Positions 2,527 to 29,505 of a stretch of DNA of 33,993 nt are shown here, piece after piece. Origin of the DNA: a virus; the IMG/VR virus record IMGVR_UViG_3300044993_000431, positions 1 through 33,993 of that record, one strand, 5' to 3'. A program made the translations under genes and the position numbers. The notes below the pieces were generated by a model, which was given only the letters and a program-made list of their open reading frames with translations, was not told the DNA's origin and searched no databases. The first letter of the stretch is position 1; each line of letters begins with the position of its first letter.

Positions 2527-3013
2527 GATCCTAGCGCTGGACGTCGCCAACGTGACTGGCTGGGCGATCGCAGAGGACCAGCAAGTCCTGGCCAGCGGAG
2601 CGATAGAACTCGTTAGCGGCGAGATCAAATCAGACCTGCGGAACATGCCCGGGTCTGAGCTCAGCCGCTTAGCGACGTTATCACTCTACGTGTTTATGAT
2701 CAACACGCTGGACAAATGGCGACCCGATGCTGTGGTCGCTGAGCGGCCGTTCTGGAACCACAGGTCTCCGATGGCTGGAGCGCAGTTGTTCACGCTGCGA
2801 GGAGTCGTTCTGCTGGTGTCCATTTTACGGAAACTCCCGTTCTACGAAGTAGAGGCCAGGGTCTGGCAGGCCTGGGCGTCTCGCTGTACCGATTGGAGCA
2901 AGACGAAAGTCAAGGGAGTCGGCGACAAACTAGACGCAGAAGCTCTGGGTCTCTGGGCATCCGTGATGCTAGACCCCGTCTTCCTCAAAGTGGCGAACAG
3001 CGGTCGTGGATAA
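2519..3013 (+). CDS. RuvC-fold Holliday junction resolvase-like nuclease
   Basis: The 164-residue product begins with a RuvC-like first strand, ILALDVANVTGWAI, giving the first acidic residue at Asp8. A second-acid strand VVAERPF supplies Glu75, and a C-terminal helix GDKLDAEALGLWA supplies Asp136/Asp139, which matches the D-E-D metal-binding layout of RuvC-like resolvases. Length and domain content fit the family. Such enzymes cut four-way or branched DNA; in a phage they process replication and recombination intermediates before packaging. It overlaps the HTH gene (8 bases) and the DndC-like gene (8 bases). The identification rests on motif spacing. Confidence 0.8.
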   Translation: MPKILALDVANVTGWAIAEDQQVLASGAIELVSGEIKSDLRNMPGSELSRLATLSLYVFMINTLDKWRPDAVVAERPFWNHRSPMAGAQLFTLRGVVLLVSILRKLPFYEVEARVWQAWASRCTDWSKTKVKGVGDKLDAEALGLWASVMLDPVFLKVANSGRG

Positions 3014-3371
3014 TATATCCGCCATACTCGAAGACATGCGGGATGAGTATCTCCAACCGCGTACCAGCCCGTGGGCGATCGGGTTTTCTGGCGGCAAGGA
3101 TAGTACGCTGGTCACCCACCTCGCGCTGCAGATGCTGCTAGATCTACCGCCTGACCAGCGCACTAGGCCGGTGCACATCGTAGCAAACGACACGCTGGTC
3201 GAGAGTCCGTTAGTTATCCACCACCTCTACAAGACCACAGAACAGATTGCCGCCGCTGCTCGCCGGTTACAGCTACCGGTCACTGTTAAGATCACGTCAC
3301 CAGAACATACGCAGACGTTTTGGGCGAACCTTAGCGCCGAACAGATCGTCTTAAGATCAAGCCCACCATGA
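3006..3371 (+). CDS. DndC/PAPS-reductase-like PP-loop ATPase, N-terminal fragment
   Basis: GTG at 3006 opens a 121-residue frame with the PP-loop SGGKDS (28-33) in the context WAIGFSGGKDSTLVTHL. It is followed by DTLVESPLVI and a segment ending TFWANL, all in the order expected for DndC (the sulfurtransferase-like protein of DNA phosphorothioation) and related phage PAPS-reductase family proteins. After TFWANL the frame turns into SAEQIVLRSSPP and stops, while the expected continuation RTDRLKIKPT is present in another frame (about 3340-3367). The family usually has a loop of about a dozen residues with a Cys between those two motifs; it is absent here. I read this as a deletion that broke the frame. 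The stop overlaps the next ATG as ATGA, so a split two-subunit gene cannot be fully excluded. Confidence 0.75.
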   Translation: MDNISAILEDMRDEYLQPRTSPWAIGFSGGKDSTLVTHLALQMLLDLPPDQRTRPVHIVANDTLVESPLVIHHLYKTTEQIAAAARRLQLPVTVKITSPEHTQTFWANLSAEQIVLRSSPP

Positions 3372-3715
3372 AATATCTGCGCGAGCTGGCTAAAGAGACC
3401 CGGCGCGTGATTCTCTTGCTCGGCGTGCGACGCAGCGAGAGCCTCAACAGAGCCAGGATCGCAAAGCGATACAACACGGGGTTCCGTCTCAACCCCCATA
3501 GCGACATGAAATTCTGCCTAGTTTATAGACCGATTCTCGAACTGACCACAGACGATGTCTGGGAAGCTCTAGCGACGTACTCGCCGCCTTGGGGCGAGTC
3601 ACACCAGGATCTAATCCAGCTCTACCGGGACGCGCTCGGCGGTGAATGCCCTGTGGTGACCTCGGTGTCACAGGCTACAGGAAACCGTTGCTCAGCGCTT
3701 GATCTCAGACGCTGA
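3368..3715 (+). CDS. DndC/PAPS-reductase-like protein, middle fragment
   Basis: The 115-residue frame continues the DndC-like fold: VILLLGVRRSESLNRA (the conserved LGVR-ES motif), LVYRPILELTTDDVWEAL, PPWGESHQDLIQLYRDA and GGECPVV. In intact relatives GGECP is followed by a Cys-rich GCW-C segment; here the frame runs into unrelated residues and stops at 3713-3715. Upstream, the same frame encodes DRLKIKPT directly before the ATG, so this is a continuation of the previous fragment and not an independent gene. It would lack the ATP-binding PP-loop by itself. Confidence 0.7.
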   Translation: MKYLRELAKETRRVILLLGVRRSESLNRARIAKRYNTGFRLNPHSDMKFCLVYRPILELTTDDVWEALATYSPPWGESHQDLIQLYRDALGGECPVVTSVSQATGNRCSALDLRR

Positions 3716-4076: not shown

Positions 4077-4184
4077 ATGCCCTCCCCGCGCTGCTTGATA
4101 TGGGCTTTGGTGTTCAGCGCAGCGCTGTGGGTGATTCTTTACTGGCTGGTGCGGCTGGCTCTGCTTGCAGTGACCGGAGCTTGA
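4077..4184 (+). CDS. Possible small membrane protein (35 aa)
   Basis: The ATG at 4077 has GTAGGAG 10-16 bases upstream and encodes MPSPRCLIWALVFSAALWVI followed by LYWLVRLALLAVTGA. This is essentially one long hydrophobic helix with Arg near each end, and codons mostly end in G or C. It overlaps the end of the o-spanin gene by 71 bases on the opposite strand. A 35-residue single-span protein beside the lysis cassette could be an accessory holin or inhibitor, but the opposite orientation argues for an early-operon function. It may also be a chance ORF. Confidence 0.4.
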   Translation: MPSPRCLIWALVFSAALWVILYWLVRLALLAVTGA

Positions 4185-4521
4185 CCCGCTCTACTTGCTC
4201 GATTGTGGTCTCGGCGGCGATCACGCAGGTCTGCAGCGCTCCCCAGATCGAAACGAGACCCTCCGCCGGAGAGCTGGGCAGAATCGCCGGTAACCGGCAT
4301 TTGTAGAGCGCTGTCACGTCAATATCACACGCCATCAACACGGTAGGCGCTGGCGCGGGGCTAGCGCAGCCGGCTACGGCTAGAGCAAGCCATAGCGCGC
4401 CAGCACCCCGCCGGCTAGCGCAGCCGGCTACGGCTAGAGCAAGCCATAGCGCGCCAGCACCCCGCCGGCTAGCCGCTAGGGTACGACGAGTTGTCGATAC
4501 GTCTCTAGGACGGCACGGCAT
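4114..4521 (-). CDS. Outer-membrane spanin lipoprotein (Rz1-like)
   Basis: The 135-residue product has a basic N-terminus, a hydrophobic stretch ALWLALAVAGC ending in a lipobox, then a Pro/Ala-rich ASPAPAP segment and further Pro-rich sequence, as in Rz1-like o-spanins. These are processed by signal peptidase II, anchored in the outer membrane, and bind the i-spanin across the periplasm to fuse the membranes at lysis. Its start lies inside the end of the i-spanin gene (46-base overlap), the usual Rz/Rz1 arrangement. The 18-residue lipobox segment is present twice in tandem (Cys34 and Cys52), encoded by an exact 54-bp repeat. At 135 residues it is longer than typical Rz1. The start is uncertain: the ribosome binding site is weak (AGGCG). 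Confidence 0.75.
   Translation of the reverse strand: MPCRPRDVSTTRRTLAASRRGAGALWLALAVAGCASRRGAGALWLALAVAGCASPAPAPTVLMACDIDVTALYKCRLPAILPSSPAEGLVSIWGALQTCVIAAETTIEQVERVKLRSLQAEPAAPASKESPTALR
4361..4468 (-). repeat. Exact 54-bp tandem duplication in the o-spanin gene
   Basis: Two identical 54-base units (4361-4414 and 4415-4468) stand head to tail. Each encodes the same 18 residues, RRGAGALWLALAVAGC with flanking AS, so the frame is kept. The absence of any mismatch suggests a recent duplication, or an assembly artefact. Confidence 0.9.
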
Positions 4522-4835
4522 TCTGCTTGCTCGCCTTCGCTTAACGGCGCGCCGGAAAGTCGAGCTGCTCTGACGGCTTCTAAGAGCTTTGCTGATTGAC
4601 GCAGTTGTTCTTGGATTCGCTGCTCAGCGGCTCGCCGAGCGGCTACTGCTTCCGCAGCTTCGAACTGAGCGGTCATTAACTGAGACTTGGTCAGTACCAA
4701 CTGGACTTCAGTGTCTCGTAATTTGACCGCCGACGCTTCGAGCTCGGCGCGTAGGAGCTTCACCCAGAACCCTAAGGCCGCGACCACCAGGACAAGCCCA
4801 CCGCCGATCCACAATGTTGGAGACCACATGCTCAC
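4476..4835 (-). CDS. Inner-membrane spanin (Rz-like)
   Basis: The 119-residue protein has a single N-terminal membrane segment (about residues 8-25, LWIGGGLVLVVAALGFWV). A long periplasmic coiled-coil region follows, rich in Ala, Glu, Gln and Arg (about 28-95), and a short C-terminus holds one Cys. This is the i-spanin plan: inner-membrane anchor, periplasmic coiled coil, C-terminal contact with the lipoprotein spanin. Size is close to typical Rz. It overlaps the endolysin stop by 4 bases (ATGA) upstream and the o-spanin start downstream, which fixes it as part of the lysis operon. Confidence 0.85.
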   Translation of the reverse strand: MSMWSPTLWIGGGLVLVVAALGFWVKLLRAELEASAVKLRDTEVQLVLTKSQLMTAQFEAAEAVAARRAAEQRIQEQLRQSAKLLEAVRAARLSGAPLSEGEQAECRAVLETYRQLVVP

Positions 4836-5509
4836 GTCTCTCTAGTCGAGCGGCGCGGCTTGGGATTGGCGCGATTCTTCCGCCAGAAGTAGACCACAAG
4901 TCCAACAGCCAATAGGACGACCAGCGCGATCCCGATCGCGCGTAGCTGAGTCGCCCTATCGATGACCGGCACTGCCTGGTTCACGACCTCGAGCGCGCTG
5001 ACCACCGCCGCTGAGCCGCCGGCCGTGGTGATGGCAGTCGCTTTCGCTGTGTCGGTCTTGGTGAATTCGAAATTGGGTTTGATACCAGCGAGCATAATCC
5101 CGTCACGAATAACAGAATCCGGCCAAGGATAATAACCGCATTCCACCTTTGTCATCGCCTTGAGCAATTTGAACATCGTATCGAAATCTGTCAAGTCCAG
5201 CGTGTCGAGCTGACCGAACCCCGTAAGGCGGCTGACCGTGGTACAGTAGGCACGAGTGTCGTTTTCGGAAGGAGGTGCCCAGCGATGAATAATGCCAGTG
5301 ATCGTGTTGAGCCCGTAGTGCTCGCTGTAGTAGAGCAGCGTCCTAGCCGCGGCGCGATAGCCGTAGTCAGGGCTGACGAACCATTCGAAGCGCGGATTAG
5401 GATCAGCGCTGGCGTCCCCGCAGAGCGGGTGGCGGCCCTTCCAATTGAGCTTCGGGTTATAGACGATGTTCAGTGGGTTGTTTCGCCGCACGCCGATCGG
5501 CTCTTTCAT
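4832..5509 (-). CDS. Endolysin, P5-like lytic enzyme with C-terminal membrane anchor
   Basis: The gene has a strong GAGGTGAT ribosome binding site before the ATG. The 225-residue product begins GVRRNNPLNIVYNPKLNWKG and continues with SPDYGYRAAARTLLYYSEHYGLNTI and IIHRWAPPSENDT-AY. This RNNPxNI...G.RA...L.....GL.TI..II..W.PP.EN.T pattern belongs to phage P5-like muralytic enzymes, which cut the glycan strands of peptidoglycan. Residues about 1-150 are the catalytic part. A Ala/Thr-rich linker follows, then one membrane segment near residues 191-210 (IGIALVVLLAVGLVVYFW) and a basic tail. A C-terminal tail anchor is unusual for an endolysin: it could hold the enzyme at the inner membrane until the holin triggers. 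No N-terminal signal is visible. Confidence 0.8.
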   Translation of the reverse strand: MKEPIGVRRNNPLNIVYNPKLNWKGRHPLCGDASADPNPRFEWFVSPDYGYRAAARTLLYYSEHYGLNTITGIIHRWAPPSENDTRAYCTTVSRLTGFGQLDTLDLTDFDTMFKLLKAMTKVECGYYPWPDSVIRDGIMLAGIKPNFEFTKTDTAKATAITTAGGSAAVVSALEVVNQAVPVIDRATQLRAIGIALVVLLAVGLVVYFWRKNRANPKPRRSTRET

Positions 5510-5513
5510 GGTA

Positions 5514-5873
5514 TCACCTCAACCACTTGAGGAGCTCGTAGGTCGCGAGCGCTCCGGCCATCATCCATCCCAGCGGGAGCCCGATGCGCAGGAACCCGCC
5601 GAGCTCCTTCGCCGCTTGATCAGCAGCCTGTCGCCTGGCTAGCTCGATACTCATACTGCGCAGATCTTCCTGCATTACACGAATTTGTGATCGCAGATCA
5701 TTGATTTGCTTACAGAGAGAATCGATCTGTTGGCCCTGTCGAATAACTTCGTGAGTAAGATCATCAAAGTCGAGCCGCGACACTGGAGATTCCCTGTTGT
5801 GGTTTGGAGCAGGAAACGGGATGACTCGCGGTTCAGTGGGCATCTCGTGTGGTCCGATCTCGAGGGCGGTCAT
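5514..5873 (-). CDS. Holin-like protein with coiled coil and C-terminal membrane segment
   Basis: The 119-residue protein has a Pro-rich polar N-terminus, a heptad-rich coiled coil (about residues 40-75) and a single hydrophobic segment near the C-terminus (about 97-117, GLPLGWMMAGALATYELLKWL). Coiled coil plus one C-terminal membrane span is the plan of XhlA-type holin partners. It stands directly upstream of the endolysin, the usual holin position, and is the only candidate in this cassette on the minus strand. The start could also be the internal ATG at 5843. Function is inferred from topology and position, not from a family motif. Confidence 0.55.
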   Translation of the reverse strand: MTALEIGPHEMPTEPRVIPFPAPNHNRESPVSRLDFDDLTHEVIRQGQQIDSLCKQINDLRSQIRVMQEDLRSMSIELARRQAADQAAKELGGFLRIGLPLGWMMAGALATYELLKWLR

Positions 5874-5922
5874 TGTTCGTCTACCACGATTTGATTGTGA
5901 TAATCCAGAACCTCTTCATCAG

Positions 5923-6264
5923 TCAATATGCGATTGTGTTGAGTGGTACGAATAGTAGTCTGTCGTCTCCATCGACGTGTCCGCAAATCTGTATTCCGCG
6001 TTGTGTTGGAGGCGTATTCATTGGTATAGTCTGCCTGACCCCGTCTTTATAGGGTGTGATTTGCCAATTAGTGTCTAAAGACACCGCCAATGTGTGCTTA
6101 TTGCTTGAAATAGAACCATAGTCGATATACGGGAGAAATTGTCCAAATTGATTACCTGACAATTGAAGTGGAGTGTAAACAGGGTCATTGTGTCGCCCGC
6201 TGTTGAAATTCTTGGCCTTGATGATCAATGCCGTTCGCTTTGAGAAATCCAATCTGGCCATCAT
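5923..6264 (-). CDS. Small protein of the tail-fibre cluster (113 aa)
   Basis: The start is set at the ATG at 6264, which overlaps the stop of the upstream fibre gene as ATGA and has GGAG about 10 bases upstream. A longer reading from 6285 has no such support. The product is soluble, beta-rich by composition (many Asn, Thr, Gly, Ile) and ends in Tyr. It may be a fibre chaperone, a receptor-binding tip, or a short structural protein. I recognise no family. The DNA here is visibly more AT-rich than the head genes. Confidence 0.6.
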   Translation of the reverse strand: MMARLDFSKRTALIIKAKNFNSGRHNDPVYTPLQLSGNQFGQFLPYIDYGSISSNKHTLAVSLDTNWQITPYKDGVRQTIPMNTPPTQRGIQICGHVDGDDRLLFVPLNTIAY

Positions 6265-8075
6265 GGTAGAGAGATCTCCGCGCACTCAGAATCCAGCAGT
6301 GCTCCAGACCAAATGCGACACTTCCTAGTGAATGGAATCGGGTGATTAGGACCACCGAGTTCCCACTGCTGAGCAGGTCCATATAGAGGCACACCGATCG
6401 GTTGATTATTGATTAGCTTTACACCATCTATCCAGACGTCCACCATGCCGCGCCAAACGCGAACTACTAGACCAACTACTCCGATCTCGATACAATCAAC
6501 AGACAGCGTGTTCGAGCCCAGCGCGATGTGAAGTTTATCGTCCCGTAGATAAATCGCCGCTGAGCCGCAGGTTATAAGATCGCTACGATACGACCAAGTC
6601 GAGATCTTGGGTTCTGTGAACGGTCGATACAATTCGAGGAAAATAGTGAATGGGTCTGTGAGATCAAGTTGTCCCAGGTAATAGCGCTCACCACTACGAG
6701 TGACGTTCGCATTTCGGTAGCCCGCCGGAAGACCTGCCCACGGAACATTGGTCAGTTCTGCCTTATAGACCTTGATGGTGTGGCTAGAACCAGTCTGCAG
6801 ATCCCCATTAGGAGTTACGAGGCGAATTTGGTTACCCCAACCATCATTACTGTAAACGTCACACCACCAATAAGCGACATAGAGTCTGGTGTCGCCATTG
6901 ACCGGCAATCGCATGATCTTCGCGATACACGGTCTGGGTGTGCTGAAATATGTCCAAGTTTGTAGGTCGTTGTTCAGACGTGCATCAGAGGTCCCCCATG
7001 GACCATTGGTCGCAAAGCCAATACGAGCAGTCTCTGGATTGAACACGCAAACAACGTGATTAATTCCATTGACTGTGCTGAAATAGAAATATGCGTATAA
7101 TCCGGATGCTCGGTAGCGATAGACCAAATTGTGCTCGTATTCTCCGATGTTTTCACGGGTGCAATTGTGGAGCGTGGCGTTATAATCAGTGTATCTAGTT
7201 CCCCCAGGCTCTGGGCGAATACCGAGGATATCGTCTGTGTCAATAGAAACAATCGGAGAATAGTTCAATGTGACCAGCGCGCCGCTGGTCACAGTACGTA
7301 CACGAGTCCGGCTGTATTTGACACCAGATGCGCCGGACTTATAGTTCGTTTCGCCAGCCGTATAGTCAAACGGCACAGCGAGACCGCCCTGGAGACGACT
7401 GACTTGTGGGCGTCTGAGCTGGATCCCGTATTGCGGAACTTTAGAGTTATCAGACAGGCCCCATGTAGTGAGGTGGCAAACTCGCTTGACATAAGAAATG
7501 TCTTTTATGTAGAGAGAGACTCGGACCCGTTGCCATTCAGTAGAAAGTGGAATAATCGCTACAGAACCACTCCAGCCGGATCCATCAGCCTTAAGAAAAC
7601 CGACTTCAGCGCAGATTTCTTTACCTAATTCTGGAGCGACCAATCGAATGTCAAAACAGAACTGCCATCCGCCAAGCAGTAATTCTCCTGTGGAGAAAGT
7701 GAAAATCTGCTCAAGCCACATGCGGTTGATGTTAAAGTCAGTCGGTGTGAACGTGAGGATCTCACCCTCGCGGGTCACGTTGCCATAGTACACAGACCAA
7801 TCACTTAGGATATCGTATGAACTGGGGTTGAACTGATTCTCGATGCGCACCTTGCCATGTTGCGGGATCTCCCCCGGCAACCGGCTATTGAACACATCCT
7901 TAGGAGTTAGTTCAAGATGATCCCTATCATATGTCCAAACTGGTGTGCGATATGGATCTGTAGGAAGCTGAGCGTTGACCAGCAACGCCTCTGGTAGTTC
8001 GTCGGAGGCCAGAGTATCTAGATCAAAAATCGATCTGACTGCGTGACCGATCTGAGACCAACCGGCAATTTTCAT
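6261..8075 (-). CDS. Tail fibre/adhesin with LamG-like C-terminal domain
   Basis: The ATG at 8075 is chosen: it overlaps the upstream stop as ATGA and has GGAG six bases upstream (an ORF start at 8108 would lie inside the upstream gene). The 604-residue protein contains beta-sandwich-like segments: about residues 115-215 (WQFCFDIRLVAPELG, WQRVRVSLYI), resembling carbohydrate-binding modules, and a C-terminal concanavalin/LamG-like part (about 470-600, TDPFTIFLELYRPF, LHIALGSNTLSV, VWIDGVKL, ending in a domain-closing I-SG---D-E motif). Such proteins bind host surface glycans. It carries a perfect 11-bp inverted repeat in its DNA (7269-7293). Exact family is not certain. Confidence 0.65.
   Translation of the reverse strand: MKIAGWSQIGHAVRSIFDLDTLASDELPEALLVNAQLPTDPYRTPVWTYDRDHLELTPKDVFNSRLPGEIPQHGKVRIENQFNPSSYDILSDWSVYYGNVTREGEILTFTPTDFNINRMWLEQIFTFSTGELLLGGWQFCFDIRLVAPELGKEICAEVGFLKADGSGWSGSVAIIPLSTEWQRVRVSLYIKDISYVKRVCHLTTWGLSDNSKVPQYGIQLRRPQVSRLQGGLAVPFDYTAGETNYKSGASGVKYSRTRVRTVTSGALVTLNYSPIVSIDTDDILGIRPEPGGTRYTDYNATLHNCTRENIGEYEHNLVYRYRASGLYAYFYFSTVNGINHVVCVFNPETARIGFATNGPWGTSDARLNNDLQTWTYFSTPRPCIAKIMRLPVNGDTRLYVAYWWCDVYSNDGWGNQIRLVTPNGDLQTGSSHTIKVYKAELTNVPWAGLPAGYRNANVTRSGERYYLGQLDLTDPFTIFLELYRPFTEPKISTWSYRSDLITCGSAAIYLRDDKLHIALGSNTLSVDCIEIGVVGLVVRVWRGMVDVWIDGVKLINNQPIGVPLYGPAQQWELGGPNHPIPFTRKCRIWSGALLDSECAEISLP
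7269..7293. repeat. Perfect 11-bp inverted repeat in the fibre gene
   Basis: TGTGACCAGCG and CGCTGGTCACA are exact inverse complements around a 3-base spacer CGC. Each arm contains the octamer GACCAGCG or its complement, which is over-represented in this genome. It lies within coding sequence, encoding TSGALVT, and no T-run follows. Confidence 0.85.
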
Positions 8076-9035: not shown

Positions 9036-9731
9036 TCATCCCCCAGGTGCGCGGATCAGCGCGCTCTTTGCTCCGGAAGAAGCTGCGATCTCAGACCAAG
9101 TAACAGCAACCATGATTCCGGGTCGCATGTAGCCAGCGCTGAGCGTGCCCACAGGAGCTGATGGAGGGGTTCCAGTAAATCCGGATCCCCGAAATGTGAA
9201 GTAGCCTGCGCTCGTGGAATTATCTGCTGTTGTCCAATTTGAAATCGAAATGGTTCCAGACGTGTTGGTCCTGTAGCAACCGACCAGCGCGAGCCCTAGT
9301 GCTGCTCCGCCGGTCGCTGGACTAGCGGTGACATCTACATCTGTGTCTCCAGAGGATAGACCATCCGCTTGTCCAATGATCGAGTCTATGTCAGAGACTT
9401 GCCAGGCCAAGACCTGGCAGCTCCAAGCGTCGGTGCTGTTGATATTGATAGTGAGGGTTCCAGAACCCCCACTACTGTCCGCGGAATACAGAGCGATCCT
9501 GGTTCCTCGGTTCTCGGTGGAATTAGCGTGAGTAGCTTCTCTGATCAGTGTGATATTACTTAGATTAGGATGTGTGATAGATGCAATGGACGGGGCTCCA
9601 GACGCCGTCTTGCTTACCTTCACGCCCAGAAGAATCTTGCCAGACGGGAAATTGACGTTACTAAACGAGTAGGAAGTCCTGGCGACCGCGTCTGAAAGAG
9701 CAACAGATGTCGCAGACAGGCTGGCCGGCAT
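9036..9731 (-). CDS. Beta-rich virion protein of the fibre cluster (231 aa)
   Basis: The protein is rich in Ser, Thr, Ala and Gly with alternating hydrophobic residues throughout (for example KILLGVKVSKTASG and GTLTININSTDAWSCQVLAW), as expected for an all-beta virion or fibre domain. There is no signal peptide or membrane segment. Its ATG overlaps the tailspike stop by one base (TAATG), so it is translated right after the spike. Possible roles are a spike cap, a fibre connector or an extra glycan-binding module. I recognise no specific family. Confidence 0.6.
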   Translation of the reverse strand: MPASLSATSVALSDAVARTSYSFSNVNFPSGKILLGVKVSKTASGAPSIASITHPNLSNITLIREATHANSTENRGTRIALYSADSSGGSGTLTININSTDAWSCQVLAWQVSDIDSIIGQADGLSSGDTDVDVTASPATGGAALGLALVGCYRTNTSGTISISNWTTADNSTSAGYFTFRGSGFTGTPPSAPVGTLSAGYMRPGIMVAVTWSEIAASSGAKSALIRAPGG

Positions 9732-12700
9732 TATGGAGCGACTCCACCAGGCTTGTATCGCTGACGATAAGGCTCTCCCCAGGACCCTCGATCAAACATA
9801 GAAGTGTAGCTATCCGACAAGTACACAAAATATAGGAACGCGTCGATGTATCGCTGACGCAGCGTTTCAAAGCCTGCCCAAGCTGCTTCTGGATTCTCAG
9901 TGACCGGGAAGTACTGCTTAGCCGTGTGATTGAACGACATCTCGCTGATGCCAACTGGCTTGCCCCTCGAGCGAGCAAAATCAAACCACGGATGCAGACC
10001 TTCTAGCTGATTGTTCTTGTCGTATTCCAACAAGCGCTGCCAATCTGCTGAAGATTTGATGCCAATGTTATCGTGGAGACTCAACGAGACGATATCTACA
10101 TAAGCATCGCCAGGATAGATATTCCATAAGCGCTCGCTCGTGCGATTCCCGAAGCGTAGCTGATAAGACGGTCCAAACTCCCAGAGGAACCGCTTACCAG
10201 AACCCATGATCGCAGCGACTGCAGCGTTCCCGAGAGTTACGATGCGCTGCCACGCAGCGATGAACCCTGCTTTGTCTGATCCAACAGCATGATTATACCA
10301 GGTACCGTTCATTTCCCAAGCGAAGCGGATAATGACTTTGTTCGCCGGTTTGCCGGCCTGCTGACAACGATAAGCTAGTCTACGGAACAGTCTAGTGTAG
10401 TAGACATCAAATTCACCGTTAGCAACCTGCTGCCAGGAATTGGCGTTCTGCCATTGATTGTTGGACAACCGCACAGCATGAGTCGCTGGTAGCCCAGTGA
10501 TACAGATAATAACCGGTCGATCAGCGGGCCAGAGAGACGTGTCCAAGGCTTTCGTGATATTCCACATATTGATCTGACCGGACCAAGTAGTGTCGTCTGG
10601 ACCAGCGCCTCCGGCCAAGCTGTCCCAATCTGGAACGTTCTGCTCTGCCCAGACAGTCGCTACATTCGTCGGTCTGCCAAGCCACTGATCATAGCGCTGG
10701 AAGACGTACAGACCTCCCCAGTAGTTGAACGCTTGTCCAATGCCGTGATACGACTTCAGAGAAGGAACTGTCCAGCCGGCCGGCCAGCCAGAAGGAGTCG
10801 TAGTGGGGAGTTGGCCAGCCTGCTGACCAACGTCAGCGCTAGTCAACCGAACAGCGGCCGGGACGGTTCTGTTAAGGGAGGGTGTCGTTGTTCCTGAATG
10901 AGTACCGTAAGTGATCGTTCCCACGTGACCACTGACTTCAGTCGCATTGGCTGGTACCGTCTGGTCCCCAGAACGACCAGGAAACACATGTCCTACCAGG
11001 AGTGCTCCATCATTACCGGCGACCACAGATCGCTTGGCTGCGGGGTAGTCCAGCGGGGGAGTCTGCCATCCAGGACTGGTGTCTGGGTCGTGTGTTCCGG
11101 CGCTGACTTGAAATTGACCACCCAGACACTTATTGCCCACCGCAGAGTTGTCGCGATCCATAATTCGCCACCCGCCAGATTGATCAAAGTAGTTGGCGAG
11201 TAGCGCGTTGTTCACACCGTACTGAATCTGGACATAGCGGCTGGTTCCGCAATTGACGAACGTGTTGTATCGCAAGATGTTCGTGCTGGACAATACCTGA
11301 ATTACCTGATCATGAGTCGTAACGTTCTCAAATAGATTGAATTCCACAACACAGGCAGCCTGCAGCGAGATATCCGTTCCAGCCACCCCGAGCAAAATCG
11401 CATGGCGATCGGTGCCGCTGGACGTAGAGTTGTAGAAGTAATTGTGGTGGATCCAGGCCCTGCGACCACCGTCCGCAGGGCGGACGTTCACGCCCTGGGC
11501 TTGTAGGCCAACAAATTCGCACCAAGAAATTTCGCAGTCCTCTTTTGAGACCTTGATTACAGGCGAACTAGTGCATCCATCGAAGCGACAACGAACCACT
11601 TTCTGTCCGACATTCGAAACCTCTACGCGACCCCCTCCAGAGAACCTGACACCATAGACCTGTTGATACATCCCCTGCAAAGACAAGACGCCAGTGATAG
11701 AAGCGCCGTTGATCGACGCAGCGACAAGGGCGACCTGGGCAACGTTGACCGTGTAGTTCCCAGAATACGTCCCATTGGCCAAGACTATCTTGTCGCCGAC
11801 CTGGGCGTTTTGAAGTGCATTAGTCAGTTCTGTAGAATTCGTGACGTTGACAATGCGAGCCCCAGACGGCTCAGCGGGAGGACGATTGAGGCCTCCGCTC
11901 ATGTTCGCGTAAGGACCGACGTCTGTGTCCACCAAGCGAACAGGGGCCGGGACGCTGATCGACGAGGTCGCAGAGACGGTTGTGCCGACCTCACGCTGGC
12001 GCTGGACAGTTCCTTGGTTAGCTTCTACGACAGTGTCAGTAGCGGGTACGTCGCTAGGAGGAGTCGCTCCAACGATGACGGTGGCGATGTTGCTGACAAC
12101 AGATGCTCGCAGCGACGCTGGCGTGTCTCTAGCGTCAATAGTCAATGGACTACGATTACCAGCATAGATCGAAATCTTACCAGAGCAGAAATTGCCGTGG
12201 ATAGCGTTATCCGCTCCGTAATTATTGATTCCCCCTACGCCAGACTGTGGATCACTGATCCAGTTGCCCTTGATAGAATTGCCATTACCGGCGCGATTGT
12301 TGATCAGCGCGCCGTAGCACTGTTCGATCGTGTTGTTATTGATCGAGACCCGACTACAGAAGTTTAGAATCAAGTTGTTCTGTTTGGACAGACATCTGCG
12401 GAAAAGATTGTACTCCACCACCCCACCGAGCTCGACGAGCTCGTCTGACGGCGACCCTATGACGATGCCATAGAGTTGATACCGCTGATCGGTGTTGCTG
12501 TCGTGGAAATAATTTCTATGAATCCAAGTCCTGCGCGCGCCAGCGCCCGGCAGGACTTCAACTGCTTTCGCACGATAGCGATCGAATTCACAGAACCCGA
12601 CCTGGCAATCAACTCCTGTCACAGACACACAGGCCGCGGAAATGTCGTCTTGACCCTGGCGCCAATAACACCGGCTAGCGACAGTTCCTTCTCCGATCAG

Positions 12701-13537
12701 GCGCAACGTCGCAGCGTTGAATTGTACTCCATAGATCCAGGTGTGGTTACCTCGCAGTTCAAGAGATCCAGTGAACTCCGCGGTATGAAGCTGTTCACCA
12801 CGAATTACAATCGGGCTCTCCTTGGTGCCGTGCTTGAACGCAGAAAACTGTCCGCTATAGGAGCCCGAACTAAGAACGATATGTTCTCCAGGCTGAACCG
12901 CCTGCAAGGCTGCTTGCAGTTCCTGGCTATTCGATACCAGAATAGATCTAGAGGCAGTAGGATAGGTCGCCGGATTCTGTGGACCAGCGCTGACAGTTTG
13001 ACTAGTGCGGGTTCGAATCAGATCAACCGCCGAGACCGTGTAGTACCCGACGTTCGGCGCGCTGGCAGAATCGCTGAACTCGAATACGAATCTAGCCTGC
13101 GCTCCAGTTTTGTCAGATAACAGGTTCGAAGAATACGTCCACGTGTAGGTGGCAAAGGACGTTGTTAGATTCTGCCATGTGCCCGTACTCTTAAGAACAG
13201 TTCCTTCATAAAGAGATGCTCTGACCTTGGGCGCGCCGGTAGTCGTGGAAACCTTGGCTCGCACTCGTAGCAAAAGGTCGCCGGACAATTGTCCAGAAAC
13301 AGCGCTGAACACGGCGGTCGCGCCGAATGTTCCTCCTGCGGTGAAGCTGTGATTCTCATACGTGGAATCTGAGCTCGCTTCTGCAACACCTTTGATAGAA
13401 TCTTTATTAGTAATATTCCAGTTAGCCGGGTTGATTAAATCAGCAAAATCCACCCGCTCAGTGACGGTTTCTACTGTAACGGGAGCAGCGCTGACAGAGG
13501 TCAGCGGGCGAAGACCAGCGGCAACACGCCTACGCAT
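9731..13537 (-). CDS. Giant tailspike: two PL6-like beta-helices plus GH26-like glycosidase
   Basis: The 1268-residue protein has these parts. (1) Residues 20-180, a beta-sandwich of carbohydrate-binding type. (2) Residues 198-490, a right-handed beta-helix opening NSQELQAALQAVQPGEHIVL, the start pattern of PL6 alginate/chondroitin lyases. (3) Residues 560-850, a second such helix, opening NSTELTNALQNAQVGDKIVL. (4) Residues 930-1262, a TIM-barrel-like domain resembling GH26 mannanases, with FAWEMNG (Glu1075, acid/base candidate) and GISEM (Glu1199, nucleophile candidate). A short motif, VPAxVRLxxxDVG, follows each helix (529-541 and 892-904), marking module duplication. By remembered alignment, the PL6 catalytic Lys is replaced in both helices (Phe, Leu), while the Arg survives only in the first (Arg415). 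So the helices may bind and the GH26 part may cut. It is the likely depolymerase of this phage. Confidence 0.8.
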   Translation of the reverse strand: MRRRVAAGLRPLTSVSAAPVTVETVTERVDFADLINPANWNITNKDSIKGVAEASSDSTYENHSFTAGGTFGATAVFSAVSGQLSGDLLLRVRAKVSTTTGAPKVRASLYEGTVLKSTGTWQNLTTSFATYTWTYSSNLLSDKTGAQARFVFEFSDSASAPNVGYYTVSAVDLIRTRTSQTVSAGPQNPATYPTASRSILVSNSQELQAALQAVQPGEHIVLSSGSYSGQFSAFKHGTKESPIVIRGEQLHTAEFTGSLELRGNHTWIYGVQFNAATLRLIGEGTVASRCYWRQGQDDISAACVSVTGVDCQVGFCEFDRYRAKAVEVLPGAGARRTWIHRNYFHDSNTDQRYQLYGIVIGSPSDELVELGGVVEYNLFRRCLSKQNNLILNFCSRVSINNNTIEQCYGALINNRAGNGNSIKGNWISDPQSGVGGINNYGADNAIHGNFCSGKISIYAGNRSPLTIDARDTPASLRASVVSNIATVIVGATPPSDVPATDTVVEANQGTVQRQREVGTTVSATSSISVPAPVRLVDTDVGPYANMSGGLNRPPAEPSGARIVNVTNSTELTNALQNAQVGDKIVLANGTYSGNYTVNVAQVALVAASINGASITGVLSLQGMYQQVYGVRFSGGGRVEVSNVGQKVVRCRFDGCTSSPVIKVSKEDCEISWCEFVGLQAQGVNVRPADGGRRAWIHHNYFYNSTSSGTDRHAILLGVAGTDISLQAACVVEFNLFENVTTHDQVIQVLSSTNILRYNTFVNCGTSRYVQIQYGVNNALLANYFDQSGGWRIMDRDNSAVGNKCLGGQFQVSAGTHDPDTSPGWQTPPLDYPAAKRSVVAGNDGALLVGHVFPGRSGDQTVPANATEVSGHVGTITYGTHSGTTTPSLNRTVPAAVRLTSADVGQQAGQLPTTTPSGWPAGWTVPSLKSYHGIGQAFNYWGGLYVFQRYDQWLGRPTNVATVWAEQNVPDWDSLAGGAGPDDTTWSGQINMWNITKALDTSLWPADRPVIICITGLPATHAVRLSNNQWQNANSWQQVANGEFDVYYTRLFRRLAYRCQQAGKPANKVIIRFAWEMNGTWYNHAVGSDKAGFIAAWQRIVTLGNAAVAAIMGSGKRFLWEFGPSYQLRFGNRTSERLWNIYPGDAYVDIVSLSLHDNIGIKSSADWQRLLEYDKNNQLEGLHPWFDFARSRGKPVGISEMSFNHTAKQYFPVTENPEAAWAGFETLRQRYIDAFLYFVYLSDSYTSMFDRGSWGEPYRQRYKPGGVAP

Positions 13538-13543
13538 GATGAG

Positions 13544-14479
13544 TCACCCACTAAGGTCATATGTGATGATCGCCACGTTGCGCTTCGTACCATTGGCATC
13601 GACGATAACTTTCTTTCCCGGCCCAACGTTTACTGAACCTCCCCCTTCTAGACTAAGAACATGTGTCGTACTCGAGGTTTCATTCAGCGCGTGGAACACA
13701 CCTCGCCAACCAGTCGGTACTTGAATAGTCTTAGCCGTAGTGGCTGTGATGCGCCGTTCTACGCCGATGTCAGAATCTCCAAGAACAATCGGTGAAGAAG
13801 TACTATTGTCAATAGTAGGACCGAGCTTCATCCACCCGCCATAGACCTCTTGCTTGTTGAAATTCACACTTCCAGCAAACATAGTCGGACCAGTAAATGT
13901 CTGGCCCGAACTGATCTGACCGCTAGCGTAATACGTCACATTCGCGCCGGAGACGGCTCCAACGGTCACGATAGCTTCAGCATTCGGACCATCCAGGGAG
14001 ATGCTGGATTCTCCATTAATAGTAGAACCGCTCGGTGCCTGTATGGTCAAGGTGCCGCCCTGATCAGGCGCGGCCATGATGCTCCACCACATTCCAACGG
14101 TCACAGACGCGCCGCCGGGCAGAGTCACAGTGACATTGCCAGCCGGCGGAGTACCTGAATTTCGTAGAATGACCGACCTTTCGTAAAAGGTAATCACACC
14201 GGACTCAGACACAAGACGCTGAGCCACGTGATCAGCGCCGATGGTTTGGCCGGTCCCCAAGACGATCGGAGAACGAACATGTTGAACCGGAACTTCGCCA
14301 ACTTCCAGTCCGGTTTCGTCTGATTTGACCTTTACGATCTTATTTGCGAGACCAGTATAGTTCGTCGGCAAGGTGCTGATCTGATCATAAACACCCTTAA
14401 TGAACTGATCCAGTCTAGTGCGGTTATTCGGATTTGTATTGTCTCCCTCAACGAAGATGACTGCTCTACTGTACGTCAT
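13544..14479 (-). CDS. Tail fibre protein following the tail tip (311 aa)
   Basis: The protein begins MTYSRAVIFVEGDNTNPNNR, has a short helical N-terminal part, then a segment ending VKSDETGLEVGEV (a common fibre N-terminal motif). A beta-rich region follows with GNVTVTLPGGASVTVGMWW and DQGGTLTIQAPSGSTINGES, typical of phage fibre or host-interaction stalks, and a trimer-like C-terminus. It overlaps the J-like gene start (TAATG) and lies directly after it, the position of the lambda side-tail-fibre genes. Its likely role is to link or decorate the tip. No enzyme motif is seen. Confidence 0.65.
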   Translation of the reverse strand: MTYSRAVIFVEGDNTNPNNRTRLDQFIKGVYDQISTLPTNYTGLANKIVKVKSDETGLEVGEVPVQHVRSPIVLGTGQTIGADHVAQRLVSESGVITFYERSVILRNSGTPPAGNVTVTLPGGASVTVGMWWSIMAAPDQGGTLTIQAPSGSTINGESSISLDGPNAEAIVTVGAVSGANVTYYASGQISSGQTFTGPTMFAGSVNFNKQEVYGGWMKLGPTIDNSTSSPIVLGDSDIGVERRITATTAKTIQVPTGWRGVFHALNETSSTTHVLSLEGGGSVNVGPGKKVIVDANGTKRNVAIITYDLSG

Positions 14480-17400
14480 TAGACATACTCCACTGTGATG
14501 TCCGCCAGGGTTTCCACGTCTGACGCGACTACCACTTCCGGCTCCTTAGATATCACCCGGACCGTCGCATTACCGATGGGTATCGCATGCACGGCAAGCA
14601 CGAATCGATACGGGGCCTCGAGCTGGATAACGGTCCCATCAGGAGAAACGACGACATTCGTTTGATAATACTTTCGCGCTCTACCTCGGATTTTGAAATA
14701 GAGGTGCTCGAGGTAGCTGGCGACAATGGTAACTTCGATCTTGGCTCCCGCCTGATATCGCAACTCACCAGGCCAAGGCAGATAAGAACCAACCCCAGCT
14801 TCCGTGAAGCGCGTACCATCGTCAAAGACAGTTTCGTCATCAAATGCTGTCTCGACTAGTGTCCTGACCTCCCTAGTATACTGTAGAGCGCTCACGACTC
14901 CAATAGGTTGAATAATCAAAACATCAGAAGGTTCGAACCCGTCAGGGAACTCGAACTCTGTTCTGTACGTGAATTCAGCTCCCCTGGGAACAAACATGGG
15001 CGCTTCTGGCGCAGGAAACATCGGCTCGCCAGGAGCAGGAAACATCCATAGAGAATTTTCACTCGTCAAAATATCTGTTTTCTGTACGTGTGAGGGCAGT
15101 ACGCCTGGCCATCCCAGAGTTTTATAGTCCACTGACCATAGATCATACCGATCCCCACCTAGATCAGCGGGAGCGTAGGGCAGCCGGTACGGTTCGCTAG
15201 GGACACCGTTATAATAGACAGTGATCAATAGCTCACAATTATAGAACGGAAGATTGCTGATCGGAAAATACTGTGTCTGCAACAACCCCTGGTGGAGCGG
15301 AGTAGCCAGTTCCCACGGCACTCCGGGAGGTCCATACCTGATCTGCCAACCATCGTAGTGCTTACTGGTATCTCGCATCGCCCAGCGCAAGTAGTCTGAA
15401 TCGATCCACGCTGAGCTGACACCAAACGAAGAAATGGTCTGCGCTGCACGCGATGTGCTAACGCGAACGGTCGGGCTCCACAAGCTGACGCGACCGTTCA
15501 GCGTTCGCCACCTGCCCTGGACGAGCGCGTCCCTTGCCAGGGTCAGTCTGACGGAACTCGTGTCTGGGGGATACGAGTTAATAGTCATCGTATCTTCGGG
15601 ATTGTATCTCCATCCAATTTCCAGAGCAGCCAGCGGTTGAGTGTATGTTCCAGTGTCCTCGACAGCCAGCACAGCCTCGCTAGTTCGATAATCCCATATC
15701 GCGAACGTGACGATAGGTGGTTCTAACAAGGAAGATGAGATGCCACTAGACCATGGGGGAATAACTTCGGTGTCTGCTTTGTAGACACCATCATGATACC
15801 GTACGGCGGTGATCTCCGCCATCAACTGTTCCGCTGGTCGGATATTAGTAATCAGTAGTGGAATAGTTTCTACTTGAAGGTCCCCAATCGAGACCAGATC
15901 GTCGACCTCAACAGAGCCGTCTAGTGGCGTTTCAAAGTCAAGATGCGTGGAAGTAAATCTACTGATCGCCACGGTATAGATCTCAGCCCCTCTGATACGA
16001 GCACCGTAAGATCCTTCTTCTTTAAGATTCACCGGGGAAGTTAAATCAACACCAGTGATTCGGTTCTCTCGATCTGTGTAGACTTTAAGAACACGCGACC
16101 ACGAAACACCTACTCCCAGCGCGTGATGGGATAGGTGCACCAGATCGCCTACACGACAAGTTAACCAGTCCCACGGCGACAGCCATGTGAAACGCTCGCG
16201 GCGCAGCAAGATCTCAGCTAGTCGCCGGCGCGCGTGACGATATATCAGCTTAGGGCTCGTAACGCCGGGGATCTCGAAATCTTCGAATTTCGATGCGTTA
16301 TCTGGTCCGTAGCCGTCCATATAGACGACTCGCTCATCAGGCTCGTAGTCCCGTTCCTCGTTCAAGAACCTGACTCTCAGCCCGTGCGGAACGTCTATGA
16401 AGGTTAGATCAGATTTCAGATCTCTGATGTTCAAAGGAGTGAACATCTGTACAGGGGTCGTCTGTACGGAATCTATGACCGGAACACGTCGACCATTGAT
16501 AAACGGTACAATGGCGTCGCCAGTAGCGGCGACTAGCTGGAGTACTTCTTCCTGTGTGGCGTTGTCCCAGTCTATGACGATATTACATTCAAGCCCATGC
16601 TGCTGGCAATATTCATGCCATCTGACGAACCCGGCCAGATCCAACTCACTATCCGGAGTCGGCTCCCAGGCACCGGATGCCTGCAGAACAGCGCGCGCTA
16701 TGGACGCGGGATTGGACGTTTCCCGCAATACCCAATCGGAACCATTCCAGTCTAGAACCTTAGCAGAGATAACTCCACTGATCTCGTCTACAGACCCGCT
16801 GAGCTGTTCCCCTGAACGAAAGTCATAAGTGCTGATAGCGACTCCCGGCAATTTGAAGGGATTACCAGCGCGCCTGGAAATCAAAAACCGCCAGAACAAT
16901 GAATCTGATTTCGCGAAGTCTTTGCGGTCCCTAGTGATTCTAGTTAGACGCACATCAACCTGACCAGTCACATCAAGCGTGTAGGTCAAATTGAATGGAT
17001 TCGTAGTTTCTCGTCTGACGGTCTCTGTAACCCAAGTCTGCCAGACCCCAGAATCAACATAGGAATACTCTAATTCGAACGTAACAGCGAGTTCATCGGT
17101 ATCTCCATCTGACAAATCTACGAGGCCTCGGGGGAAGCTGAGTACTACCTCGATTTGCTCGGGAGCGACACCACTCCGACGAACCAGAGGTCCGAACTCA
17201 TTGACGACTTCTTCATTGATGGTCTCGACATGAACATCTTGAGAGAACAGAGTTGATTCCGGCACCACGCCAGGGTCGCCAGGGAAGAACTCCGACTGCA
17301 CATTATCAAAATATGTGATCGGAGTCTTACCGACCTTGATATCCGTTACCTCAAGAGGACCATATCCCCAGCACAGCGCGACCTGAACATGTTCTCGACG

Positions 17401-17958
17401 CTTCTTACGATAGGGAATCGGTTCTGCAGCTAGAGGAGGGTAATAACGAATTCGTCCAAAAGCACGGGGAACCGCGCTATAGATCCTGGCCTGATTAGAA
17501 ACGCGATCCAGCGACCAAGACTTAGAACCTCGACCCCCATCGGTCGAGAGCTCTGCAGGCGACACTAGGGCATTAACCAACAACCCGCCAGCCAGCCCTA
17601 CAGCCGCGCCTAGCGCGCTAGAGCCTAGCACGCCAAGCCCTAGCCCGCCTTGCGCGACGGGCAATGCCGCCCATTGCCCCGTTGCCGCGGCTGCAACGAC
17701 GACGGCGAAGAACAGTCCGATGCGAACTAGTTCTCTGTTCTGCGGCCTGATGGTCAAGCCGACCAGGCCACTAGTAATGACCTTATCCCAGTCTTCTATA
17801 GGGATTAGTTTTCCATCAAGAAAGACGATTACATACGGTTGATGACTAGGAGGAAAATATCGCTGAACCAGCGCGCGAGCAGTAGTCGGACCAACCTGCT
17901 CTACGACCCGGTCGAGAGCAAACGGGTTCTGTCTCGCTGCTACGACTAGGTGCGCCAT
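14479..17958 (-). CDS. Tail tip attachment protein, gpJ-like
   Basis: The 1159-residue protein is the lambda J-type central tip and host-specificity protein. It has an N-terminal region with a hydrophobic stretch (about 100-150, Ala/Gly/Leu-rich), then RIYSAVPRAFGRIRYYPPLA and the J-like segment LCWGYGPLEVTDIKVGKTPI, typical of phage tip hubs. Fibronectin-like beta domains follow, and near residue 980 an 8-residue tandem repeat (MFPAPGEP, MFPAPEAP). It overlaps the K-like gene by 13 bases and the fibre gene by one. The gene order tape measure - M - L - K - J confirms the assignment. A gpI-like gene between K and J is absent. Confidence 0.9.
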   Translation of the reverse strand: MAHLVVAARQNPFALDRVVEQVGPTTARALVQRYFPPSHQPYVIVFLDGKLIPIEDWDKVITSGLVGLTIRPQNRELVRIGLFFAVVVAAAATGQWAALPVAQGGLGLGVLGSSALGAAVGLAGGLLVNALVSPAELSTDGGRGSKSWSLDRVSNQARIYSAVPRAFGRIRYYPPLAAEPIPYRKKRREHVQVALCWGYGPLEVTDIKVGKTPITYFDNVQSEFFPGDPGVVPESTLFSQDVHVETINEEVVNEFGPLVRRSGVAPEQIEVVLSFPRGLVDLSDGDTDELAVTFELEYSYVDSGVWQTWVTETVRRETTNPFNLTYTLDVTGQVDVRLTRITRDRKDFAKSDSLFWRFLISRRAGNPFKLPGVAISTYDFRSGEQLSGSVDEISGVISAKVLDWNGSDWVLRETSNPASIARAVLQASGAWEPTPDSELDLAGFVRWHEYCQQHGLECNIVIDWDNATQEEVLQLVAATGDAIVPFINGRRVPVIDSVQTTPVQMFTPLNIRDLKSDLTFIDVPHGLRVRFLNEERDYEPDERVVYMDGYGPDNASKFEDFEIPGVTSPKLIYRHARRRLAEILLRRERFTWLSPWDWLTCRVGDLVHLSHHALGVGVSWSRVLKVYTDRENRITGVDLTSPVNLKEEGSYGARIRGAEIYTVAISRFTSTHLDFETPLDGSVEVDDLVSIGDLQVETIPLLITNIRPAEQLMAEITAVRYHDGVYKADTEVIPPWSSGISSSLLEPPIVTFAIWDYRTSEAVLAVEDTGTYTQPLAALEIGWRYNPEDTMTINSYPPDTSSVRLTLARDALVQGRWRTLNGRVSLWSPTVRVSTSRAAQTISSFGVSSAWIDSDYLRWAMRDTSKHYDGWQIRYGPPGVPWELATPLHQGLLQTQYFPISNLPFYNCELLITVYYNGVPSEPYRLPYAPADLGGDRYDLWSVDYKTLGWPGVLPSHVQKTDILTSENSLWMFPAPGEPMFPAPEAPMFVPRGAEFTYRTEFEFPDGFEPSDVLIIQPIGVVSALQYTREVRTLVETAFDDETVFDDGTRFTEAGVGSYLPWPGELRYQAGAKIEVTIVASYLEHLYFKIRGRARKYYQTNVVVSPDGTVIQLEAPYRFVLAVHAIPIGNATVRVISKEPEVVVASDVETLADITVEYV
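14974..15045 (-). repeat. 24-bp (8-residue) repeats in the gpJ-like gene
   Basis: The Met codons of three MF-P units are spaced exactly 24 bases apart (15043-15045, 15019-15021, 14995-14997). They encode MFPAPGEP, MFPAPEAP and a degenerate MFVPRGAE. It is probably a flexible Pro-rich hinge. Confidence 0.7.
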
Positions 17959-27123: not shown

Positions 27124-27471
27124 TTACGAGCCGAGAGCGTTGGTGTTCGGAGTCAAGAGCACCGCGACCTTCGTGTCCGACGATGCGGCGGCGGTTTCCA
27201 CGAGCCCGATCACTTTGTTACCGGTAGCCGTCGTAGTCACCCTGGAGTTGGTCGCGTCCCAATACACGACCGTCCCGGCAGTCAAAGCCGATCCGGTCGC
27301 CTTGGGCAAATACCAGACTCCAGTCACGCCCAGCGTAAGTAGCTCGTTCACCACTGCGTCGTGAAGCGCCACGCCGAACAGGAGCCCGATCAGAACTCCG
27401 GATCCACTAGTGACGGTCCCTGGAGACAGGACAGTTACTTTGTCGCCCTCGTACTTGAAGTTAGTCGCCAT
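27124..27471 (-). CDS. DUF2190 capsid decoration protein
   Basis: The 115-residue protein has the DUF2190 pattern: MATNFKYEGDKVTVLSPGTV, then SGVLIGLLFGVALHDAV, VTGVWYLPKATG, TVVYWDATNSRVTTT and a C-terminal KVAVLLTPNT. Members are small beta-rich capsid cement or decoration proteins that stabilise the expanded head, filling the role of lambda gpD. It lies 3 bases after the capsid fusion gene and 6 before the FII-like gene. Confidence 0.8.
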   Translation of the reverse strand: MATNFKYEGDKVTVLSPGTVTSGSGVLIGLLFGVALHDAVVNELLTLGVTGVWYLPKATGSALTAGTVVYWDATNSRVTTTATGNKVIGLVETAAASSDTKVAVLLTPNTNALGS

Positions 27472-27474
27472 GGA

Positions 27475-29505
27475 TCAGGCTCCAGCGTTGTAGATGCAGC
27501 CGCGAGGATCAGCCGGCGCGACACCCCACACGTGCACGATCCTCCACTGGACACCAGTCGTGTTGAACGGCTGCTCCTGGGAGATCTGGGGAGCCTCAGC
27601 GCCCGACAGATGGACCATCTCGAACGACCGTACTCGAGACGGACGGACGAACGAGTACCACGCCGTGGAGGCCGGACCGAGACGCGCCGTCGAGATGATC
27701 TCGCTGTAAGTGTTCTGGACCACGTTCACCACGCCAGCGGACATGTTCGTGGCGACCATCGACTGCGAAGCGTTGATCCGCCGAGCGACAGGCTCCACGG
27801 ACTTACCGCAGAGCATGAAGTCCGGAGACAGGTCCAGATAGTCCTCTCCGGCGATGTCCTTGAACGCGGCAAACTTGAGCATCACGTCGATGAAGCTCGC
27901 CTCCGACGGAGCGGCCGCAGTCGCGACATTGCCGCGGCTGGAGTGGAAGAACGGATTGCCGTCCGGCAGCACCGGGTTAGACATGAGGAGGTTGATCGCG
28001 TCGAGCTCCTCAGACCGGCGGGCGGAAGCTCCGAGCTGCGCGACGAGGTCGCTAAAGGTGTTAAGATCGTTGTCCACGATCGCTTTGCGGCTGAGCCCGA
28101 TGCGGACACCGTTCTCATCCACCGACACCATGTACCGCTCGCCGTCGGGGATGCGGATGAACGGGATCTCACCGTCCTCGCTGAGGGTCTTCAGTCGCGG
28201 CAGCAGACCCGTGCGGTACCTGATGTGGTTGCGGAAATCGTCCACCGTGACGCTGTAGCACCAACGCGACCAGGTGTACGGCTCCGTGTTGTAGGCCGCG
28301 AGGAGCGTCTTGTGCATGACGTTTTCCATCAGCACAGCGAAGTCGCTCGCGGTCTGCATGCCGAAGAGCCGATTGCTCTGCAGCGCCTCGGTGACCAACT
28401 CGTGCGGGAAGCGGCCCTTGGTTCGCACCCCGGCTCGCTCGAGGCATTCGGCGGCGATGTTGACCAGCGTCATGCCACGGAACTCGCCCGGGTCGCCGGC
28501 CTGGAACGCAGAGCCGAACCGCTCCGGGAGCCGCATCCGCATCGTGAGCCAGTTGGTCACACCCTCGCGAAGCTTCGTGACCTCATCCTTGCCAGGGGCA
28601 CCCTGGACCGAAGGATACGAGACCACAGGCTGCGTCCCCTTGGCGAGCACCCCGACCAGCGCATCGGTGAACTGCTCGACGGGACGGTCGACGTGGGTGA
28701 GGTAGTCGTAAACGAGCTCCTGTACCTCGGGCAGATGCATGAACGGCTTAGCTCGCTCACGGATCTTGGAATTGCGAGCCACGATCTGTGCGGCATGGTC
28801 CACCGGCGGGCTGGCGGCCGGCGGGCAGGCAACCGCGGCCGGCGGGCTGGCGGCCGGCGGGCTGGCAACCGCGGCCGGCGGGCTAGCGGCCGGCTGGCTG
28901 GCAACCGCGGCCGGCACAGGGCTAGGCGTTGCGGTCTGGGGCGACTCCTGCACTGTAGAACTCCTCATGGTGCGCGGGATGAAGTTGAGCAAGCGGGCCG
29001 AAAGCTCCAAGAACGGGGTCTTTCTAACCTCGTCTACGAAACCGTGTTCCAGCGCCTGCGACGCCGTGAACCAGTTATCTTCTCCGTTCTTGAGCCACTC
29101 CTCCAACTTCGACTGATTGATCTGCGGACGCAGACGGTAGAACTCACGCATCTGGTCCGAGTAATTGTCAAGGAAATCGGACACCTTGCGCAGGCGATCA
29201 GCGTTGGCCTGGATCACAAGCAGCGACGGTCCATGGACCATGTACGATCCACCTGCGTCGATGGTCACCTTGCGGCCAGCACAAGCCACGACGGTCGCAG
29301 CGCTGGCTGCGAGACCATCAATAGCAATATCCACATTGCCGCGGTCAACGATCATATTTGCGATCGCAACCGCCTCGGACAGATCACCGCCGGCGCTGCT
29401 CAACCTGACCAGCGTGTCTTCCTTGCTGGTCTTGAGCTCGTCATAGAAATCCTTTGCCCGGATCTCTAGACCGAAGTCGCCGTACAGGAACAACTCACGC
29501 GCCAT
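27475..29505 (-). CDS. ClpP-type prohead protease fused to major capsid protein
   Basis: The 676-residue protein joins two roles. Residues 1-180 are a ClpP/S14-type prohead protease: SSAGGDLSEAVAIANMI, then GLAASAATVV with nucleophile Ser68 and SYMVHGPS with His91, ending in WFTASQALEHGFVDEV. Residues 182-235 are a Pro/Ala/Ser linker with three 12-residue repeats. Residues about 235-676 hold a scaffold-like stretch and the major capsid protein, with no separate shell gene elsewhere. Protease-capsid fusions of this type are known in phages; the protease would release itself and the scaffold segment during maturation. Internal translation starts (Met182 and others) are possible. The ribosome binding site GAGGA precedes the ATG. 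Confidence 0.85.
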   Translation of the reverse strand: MARELFLYGDFGLEIRAKDFYDELKTSKEDTLVRLSSAGGDLSEAVAIANMIVDRGNVDIAIDGLAASAATVVACAGRKVTIDAGGSYMVHGPSLLVIQANADRLRKVSDFLDNYSDQMREFYRLRPQINQSKLEEWLKNGEDNWFTASQALEHGFVDEVRKTPFLELSARLLNFIPRTMRSSTVQESPQTATPSPVPAAVASQPAASPPAAVASPPAASPPAAVACPPAASPPVDHAAQIVARNSKIRERAKPFMHLPEVQELVYDYLTHVDRPVEQFTDALVGVLAKGTQPVVSYPSVQGAPGKDEVTKLREGVTNWLTMRMRLPERFGSAFQAGDPGEFRGMTLVNIAAECLERAGVRTKGRFPHELVTEALQSNRLFGMQTASDFAVLMENVMHKTLLAAYNTEPYTWSRWCYSVTVDDFRNHIRYRTGLLPRLKTLSEDGEIPFIRIPDGERYMVSVDENGVRIGLSRKAIVDNDLNTFSDLVAQLGASARRSEELDAINLLMSNPVLPDGNPFFHSSRGNVATAAAPSEASFIDVMLKFAAFKDIAGEDYLDLSPDFMLCGKSVEPVARRINASQSMVATNMSAGVVNVVQNTYSEIISTARLGPASTAWYSFVRPSRVRSFEMVHLSGAEAPQISQEQPFNTTGVQWRIVHVWGVAPADPRGCIYNAGA
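28804..28911 (-). repeat. Three 36-bp repeats in the protease-capsid linker
   Basis: Units 28804-28839, 28840-28875 and 28876-28911 encode AAVACPPAASPP, AAVASPPAASPP and AAVASQPAASPP with few base changes. They form a Pro-rich flexible linker between protease and capsid parts, and the copy number could vary by slippage. Confidence 0.88.

Follow-up and report, generated by a model that had tools for sequence, protein, structure and literature searches.

A phage tail-operon protein joining duplicated PL6-derived beta-helices to a GH26 domain is a predicted receptor-binding depolymerase

A single gene in a virus record from IMG/VR (33,993 bases, analysed whole and called the window here) encodes a 1,268-residue protein that carries folds from two families of polysaccharide-degrading enzymes, which raises the question of which of these folds still act as enzymes and where the protein does its work. 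The ORF runs from an ATG at 13537 to a stop at 9731 (9731..13537) without an internal stop, and comprises an N-terminal region, two PL6-derived beta-helix modules and a GH26 domain. The first-pass annotation had recognized this polypeptide, which proved real, but had not stated that it lies on the minus strand. We consider it most likely that the product is a virion tail protein with GH26 as its sole active site, set on lyase-derived helices that probably bind sugar, and we assign a probability of roughly 60% to the reading that it is a tail-borne receptor-binding depolymerase of this design.

The contig is that of an uncultivated lambda-type siphophage, and the ORF lies within its tail operon. 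Read along the minus strand, the genes for the terminase large subunit and portal are succeeded by one in which a ClpP-type protease is joined to the capsid protein, and then by genes for a minor tail protein, the tape measure, three smaller proteins of the tail or virion and a gpJ-like protein of the central tail tip (14479..17958, minus strand; PHROG phrog_31, E=1.5e-68). The gpJ-like gene is two genes upstream of the 1,268-residue ORF, with a 311-residue protein of no family between them (13544..14479, minus strand). Directly downstream, with a one-base overlap, is a 231-residue protein (9036..9731, minus strand), also of no family, and proteins of 305, 615 and 120 residues lie between it and an endolysin-like gene. 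Most adjacent ORFs abut or overlap one another. We read the protein as tail-borne because the tape measure, minor tail genes, gpJ-like gene and then this ORF form an almost gapless series, which is the gene position characteristic of tailspikes.

The best relatives of the terminase large subunit are 33–37% identical and come mostly from phages of Gram-negative hosts. Over 18.5 kb the window matches a sister contig (IMGVR_UViG_3300044940_000245) at 99.98% identity, with a single synonymous difference within the ORF (codon 1016, CTA/CTC). Relatives of the 311-residue and gpJ-like neighbours were found only in contigs of this same virus. A whole-protein tblastn search of 50,697 deposited phage records returned no match to the 1,268-residue protein, so its virion role is proposed without an anchoring described homologue. 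Residues 1–190 (12968..13537, minus strand) belong to no recognized family and are modelled with pLDDT below 50; family searches of this region, PHROG included, recognized no virion-attachment domain, and no trimerization element was recognized at the N-terminus.

Three other features of the window are recorded here. Two short overlapping plus-strand ORFs in different frames (3006-3371 and 3368-3715) match successive parts of a DndC-type sulfurtransferase family (NF005316/TIGR03183; E=5e-31 and 4.5e-27, far below the full-length cut-offs), and we annotate 3006-3715 as a putative split and shortened DndC-like gene. On the minus strand, ORF 4114-4521, with a lipobox-like stretch (GALWLALAVAGCAS) present as a tandem pair, overlaps ORF 4476-4835, whose product is hydrophobic over an N-terminal stretch and which adjoins the endolysin-like ORF 4832-5509; 4114-4835 resembles a spanin pair that has undergone an internal duplication. 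A 702-residue plus-strand open frame (27361-29469) lies antisense over the protease-capsid gene (27475-29505) and is probably a by-product of codon usage.

The two helix modules are duplicates from one PL6 ancestor. Module 1 (residues 191–545; 11903..12967, minus strand) and its diverged copy, module 2 (residues 546–925; 10763..11902, minus strand), are 31% identical over their full length (E=7e-42). Residues 201–467 match Pfam Chondroitinas_B at E=8.5e-20 and 71.6 bits, against a cut-off of 24, and PL6 enzymes in the PDB by sequence at about 3e-10, which bears out the duplicated lyase-type helix of the first-pass annotation. An AlphaFold2 model of residues 1–545 gave pLDDT values of about 70–98 over most of residues 192–460 (residues 1–191 fell below 50), and in a fold search of the PDB with the module 1 model the best 26 matches were all PL6 enzymes (first E=3.8e-11). 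A right-handed parallel beta-helix is thus accompanied by PL6 sequence similarity. Both modules also share with bacterial PL6 relatives the C-terminal tail LTxADVGPxA; the duplicated unit is therefore a PL6 unit rather than a generic helix. Among viral contigs, the only helix relatives were those of the sister contig and a single weak one (L007), and a viral fold library searched with the helix model yielded nothing beyond weak, generic beta-helix matches. Lentzea genomes carry two side-by-side PL6-type ORFs (5731-7260 and 7264-8736 in L018; similarly in L017, L021, L024 and L025), a bacterial parallel to the duplication in the phage protein.

The lyase site of these helices is largely gone. 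Every one of the 21 bacterial relatives that were compared retains the PL6 Lys together with the Arg-His pair. Module 1 has Phe393 or Cys394 (depending on the alignment) in place of the Lys and Ala416 in place of the His, and keeps Arg415; in module 2, Leu749, Gln772 and Tyr773 occupy the positions of Lys, Arg and His. The near-invariant PL6 Glu beside the Lys, which we take to be a calcium ligand, is replaced by Asn387 in module 1 and by Gln744 in module 2. Neither copy has the full set of catalytic Lys, Arg and assisting His, or the acidic residues of the calcium site. In BcelPL6, a PL6 enzyme, bound calcium neutralizes the substrate carboxylate, and activity is lost on replacing Lys249, Arg270 or His271 (PMC6879350). 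Because Lys, His and the near-invariant Glu are replaced in both modules, and the Arg too in module 2, both are, judged from these residues, very probably inactive as PL6 lyases. The absence of the Lys had been suspected beforehand; most of the remaining site has been lost with it. The helices probably bind sugar.

The C-terminal domain (residues 941–1249; 9791..10717, minus strand), a predicted catalytic domain, is GH26 and retains both catalytic Glu residues. Scored alone against Pfam GH26 it reaches 13.9 bits, below the 20.2 cut-off; phmmer with this domain alone found nothing in the PDB, and a pattern search of genome contigs found no relatives of it. A profile built from six phage relatives, each above the Pfam GH26 cut-off, with the window left out, matches the domain at 6e-17 and reported none of 2,000 shuffled copies. 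The profile of all seven phage domains matches the lichenase CtLic26 at 2e-47 and aligns the two catalytic Glu residues of that enzyme to Glu1075 in WEMNG (10313..10315, minus strand) and Glu1199 in ISEMS (9941..9943, minus strand), the predicted acid/base and nucleophile and the very residues that the first-pass annotation had named in its GH26-like hydrolase. Both Glu residues, the acid/base on strand 4 and the nucleophile on strand 7 as in GH26, occur in all seven phage domains. WExNGxW, PG, VD and E are invariant across the seven, the other six being 23–26% identical to that of the window. Modelled with low confidence (mean pLDDT 56, pTM 0.66), the domain has a TIM barrel of GH26 type, and the 20 best Foldseek matches of this model in the PDB were all GH26 (first E=1.8e-7); the comparison of predicted structures with PL6 and GH26 that had been proposed for this protein agrees, for module 1 and the C-terminal domain, with both assignments. 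Mannan as the substrate was considered and rejected, since the profile matched a lichenase best and an altered residue adjoins the acid/base.

That residue is Trp1074 (10316-10318, minus strand), in place of the His that usually stands just before the GH26 acid/base Glu. His is found at this position in the solved GH26 enzymes shown in the alignments, in the two GH26 enzymes that mangrove phage GX15bay encodes and, by our own reading of the list, in 12 of 13 GH26 domains with a clear EMNG-type motif, sampled from the phylum to which one actinobacterial relative belongs. It is usual in the family without being strictly required. Since Trp1074 replaces a residue that is near-universal among GH26 domains with a clear motif, activity may be altered, and the Trp may mark a GH26 subgroup with another substrate. 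The remaining phage GH26 domains in our set have Trp as well; because this set was gathered with sequence patterns containing Trp, its share there is not a frequency, and Trp1074 as a typical trait of phage GH26 was rejected.

Given that sites have already been lost in two of the three catalytic modules, and that Trp1074 has displaced the usual His, we entertained the possibility that the protein is a pure adhesin, its helices and GH26 domain all catalytically dead and serving for glycan binding only. However, the catalytic Glu residues and those flanking them are invariant in seven divergent phage GH26 domains, arguing for retained function, and we regard this explanation as unlikely.

The company that GH26 keeps in other phages also points to the tail. 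About 20 distinct ORFs in viral contigs, collected with the Trp-containing patterns, carry GH26 of the window's type. The domain is fused to a phrog_1887 tail protein with Ig-like domains in L050, to a collagen-type tail-fibre stem in L061, and elsewhere to LamG (L052), malectin (L040, L048) or CBM60 (L009); these fusions to tail or carbohydrate-binding domains are a second reason for our tail-borne reading. One further contig, L011 (IMGVR_UViG_3300027265_000005), encodes a 1,210-residue chain that, like the window's protein, has a beta-helix with weak PL6 similarity (Chondroitinas_B, E=2.8e-4, below the cut-off) followed by GH26, and adjoins structural genes. It differs in having a single helix and an extra C-terminal part and in belonging to a different phage lineage; the two GH26 domains are 35% identical over about 96 residues. 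On the evidence of L011 and of the tail and carbohydrate-binding fusions, the architecture is of a recurring kind, and we found its tandem PL6 form in the window's virus alone. The first-pass annotation knew of no spike with this combination; the joining of a beta-helix to GH26 is shared with L011. In some phage contigs GH26 occurs in two separate ORFs (3-929 and 5113-6546 in L005; also the contigs of L042/L051 and L043/L050).

Environmental phages also have GH26 genes outside tail operons, read as auxiliary (PMC6460857; GX15bay), and the PL6 relatives of the helices are bacterial proteins. Both facts would suit a non-virion enzyme made during infection, whether auxiliary metabolic or lysis-stage, that frees sugars from environmental or host polysaccharides. 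Against this, the ORF is packed into the tail operon just past the gpJ-like gene, the protein starts with no obvious signal peptide, and the loss of lyase residues from the helices would be unexpected in a nutritional enzyme; we consider such a role improbable. That the helices are still lyases by another mechanism, metal-independent or with a relocated site, giving three active domains, is very improbable: module 1 keeps Arg415, and PMC6879350 cites a report of a PL6 enzyme that is independent of calcium, but replacing Lys or Arg abolished BcelPL6 activity (PMC6879350) and the Lys, near-invariant Glu and His are missing from both copies.

We therefore return to the tail-borne depolymerase. 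In the mechanism that we propose, two PL6 modules would have arisen from one ancestor by duplication and been stripped of lyase chemistry, leaving long beta-helical arms whose probable role is to bind or position exopolysaccharide or capsule. The C-terminal GH26 domain would act as a retaining beta-glycosidase, with Glu1075 as acid/base and Glu1199 as nucleophile, and cleavage of the bound glycan would let the tail tip reach the cell. Virion location, trimerization, hydrolase activity, substrate and host are all points that we infer. More tentatively, at somewhat short of even odds, the protein would represent an undescribed depolymerase class, in which a divergent GH26 with Trp beside its acid/base is the sole enzyme and duplicated PL6 pseudo-lyases are the glycan-binding arms. 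If so, a phage has reused enzyme scaffolds of two families as a single adhesin-enzyme.

The open-access literature yielded no described GH26 or PL6 phage tail depolymerase. It does include a roseophage R4C baseplate protein with a mannanase-like fold (PMC10276861), a GH26 mannanase as an auxiliary gene of mangrove soil viruses (PMC6460857) and a glycoside hydrolase that forms part of the virion in a Bacillus jumbo phage (PMC4870245). GH26 tail proteins recur in uncultivated phages, yet none is described as a tail depolymerase in the literature searched, and the window's protein is therefore a concrete, testable candidate, both for a GH26 depolymerase class and for binding arms made of pseudo-enzymes.

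Among known systems, the PL6 lyases (AlyGC, BcelPL6, Pedsa0632 and chondroitinase B) share the fold of module 1, the sequence of both modules and, in bacterial relatives, the LTxADVGPxA tail; module 1 also gave fold matches to longer PL6 enzymes of ~730 residues, AlyGC and BcAlyPL6. Unlike them, the window's protein has lost the Lys, His and near-invariant Glu in both copies and the Arg in the second, and it is phage-borne, with two paralogous copies per chain fused to GH26. With the GH26 hydrolases (CtLic26 lichenase, CjMan26A and other mannanases) it shares the barrel fold, the catalytic Glu pair and a YPGD..VD motif, and it departs from the solved enzymes in its Trp in place of His, its insertions and an identity of about 16% in the fold alignment. 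P22-type tailspikes resemble it in their right-handed beta-helix, tail-gene position and predicted depolymerase role; the window's protein, a putative trimer, differs from them in that its helices are PL6-type and apparently dead. The majority of phage depolymerases described so far are beta-helical proteins that carry their active site on the helix itself, whereas here the helices look dead and the predicted active site lies in a separate TIM barrel.
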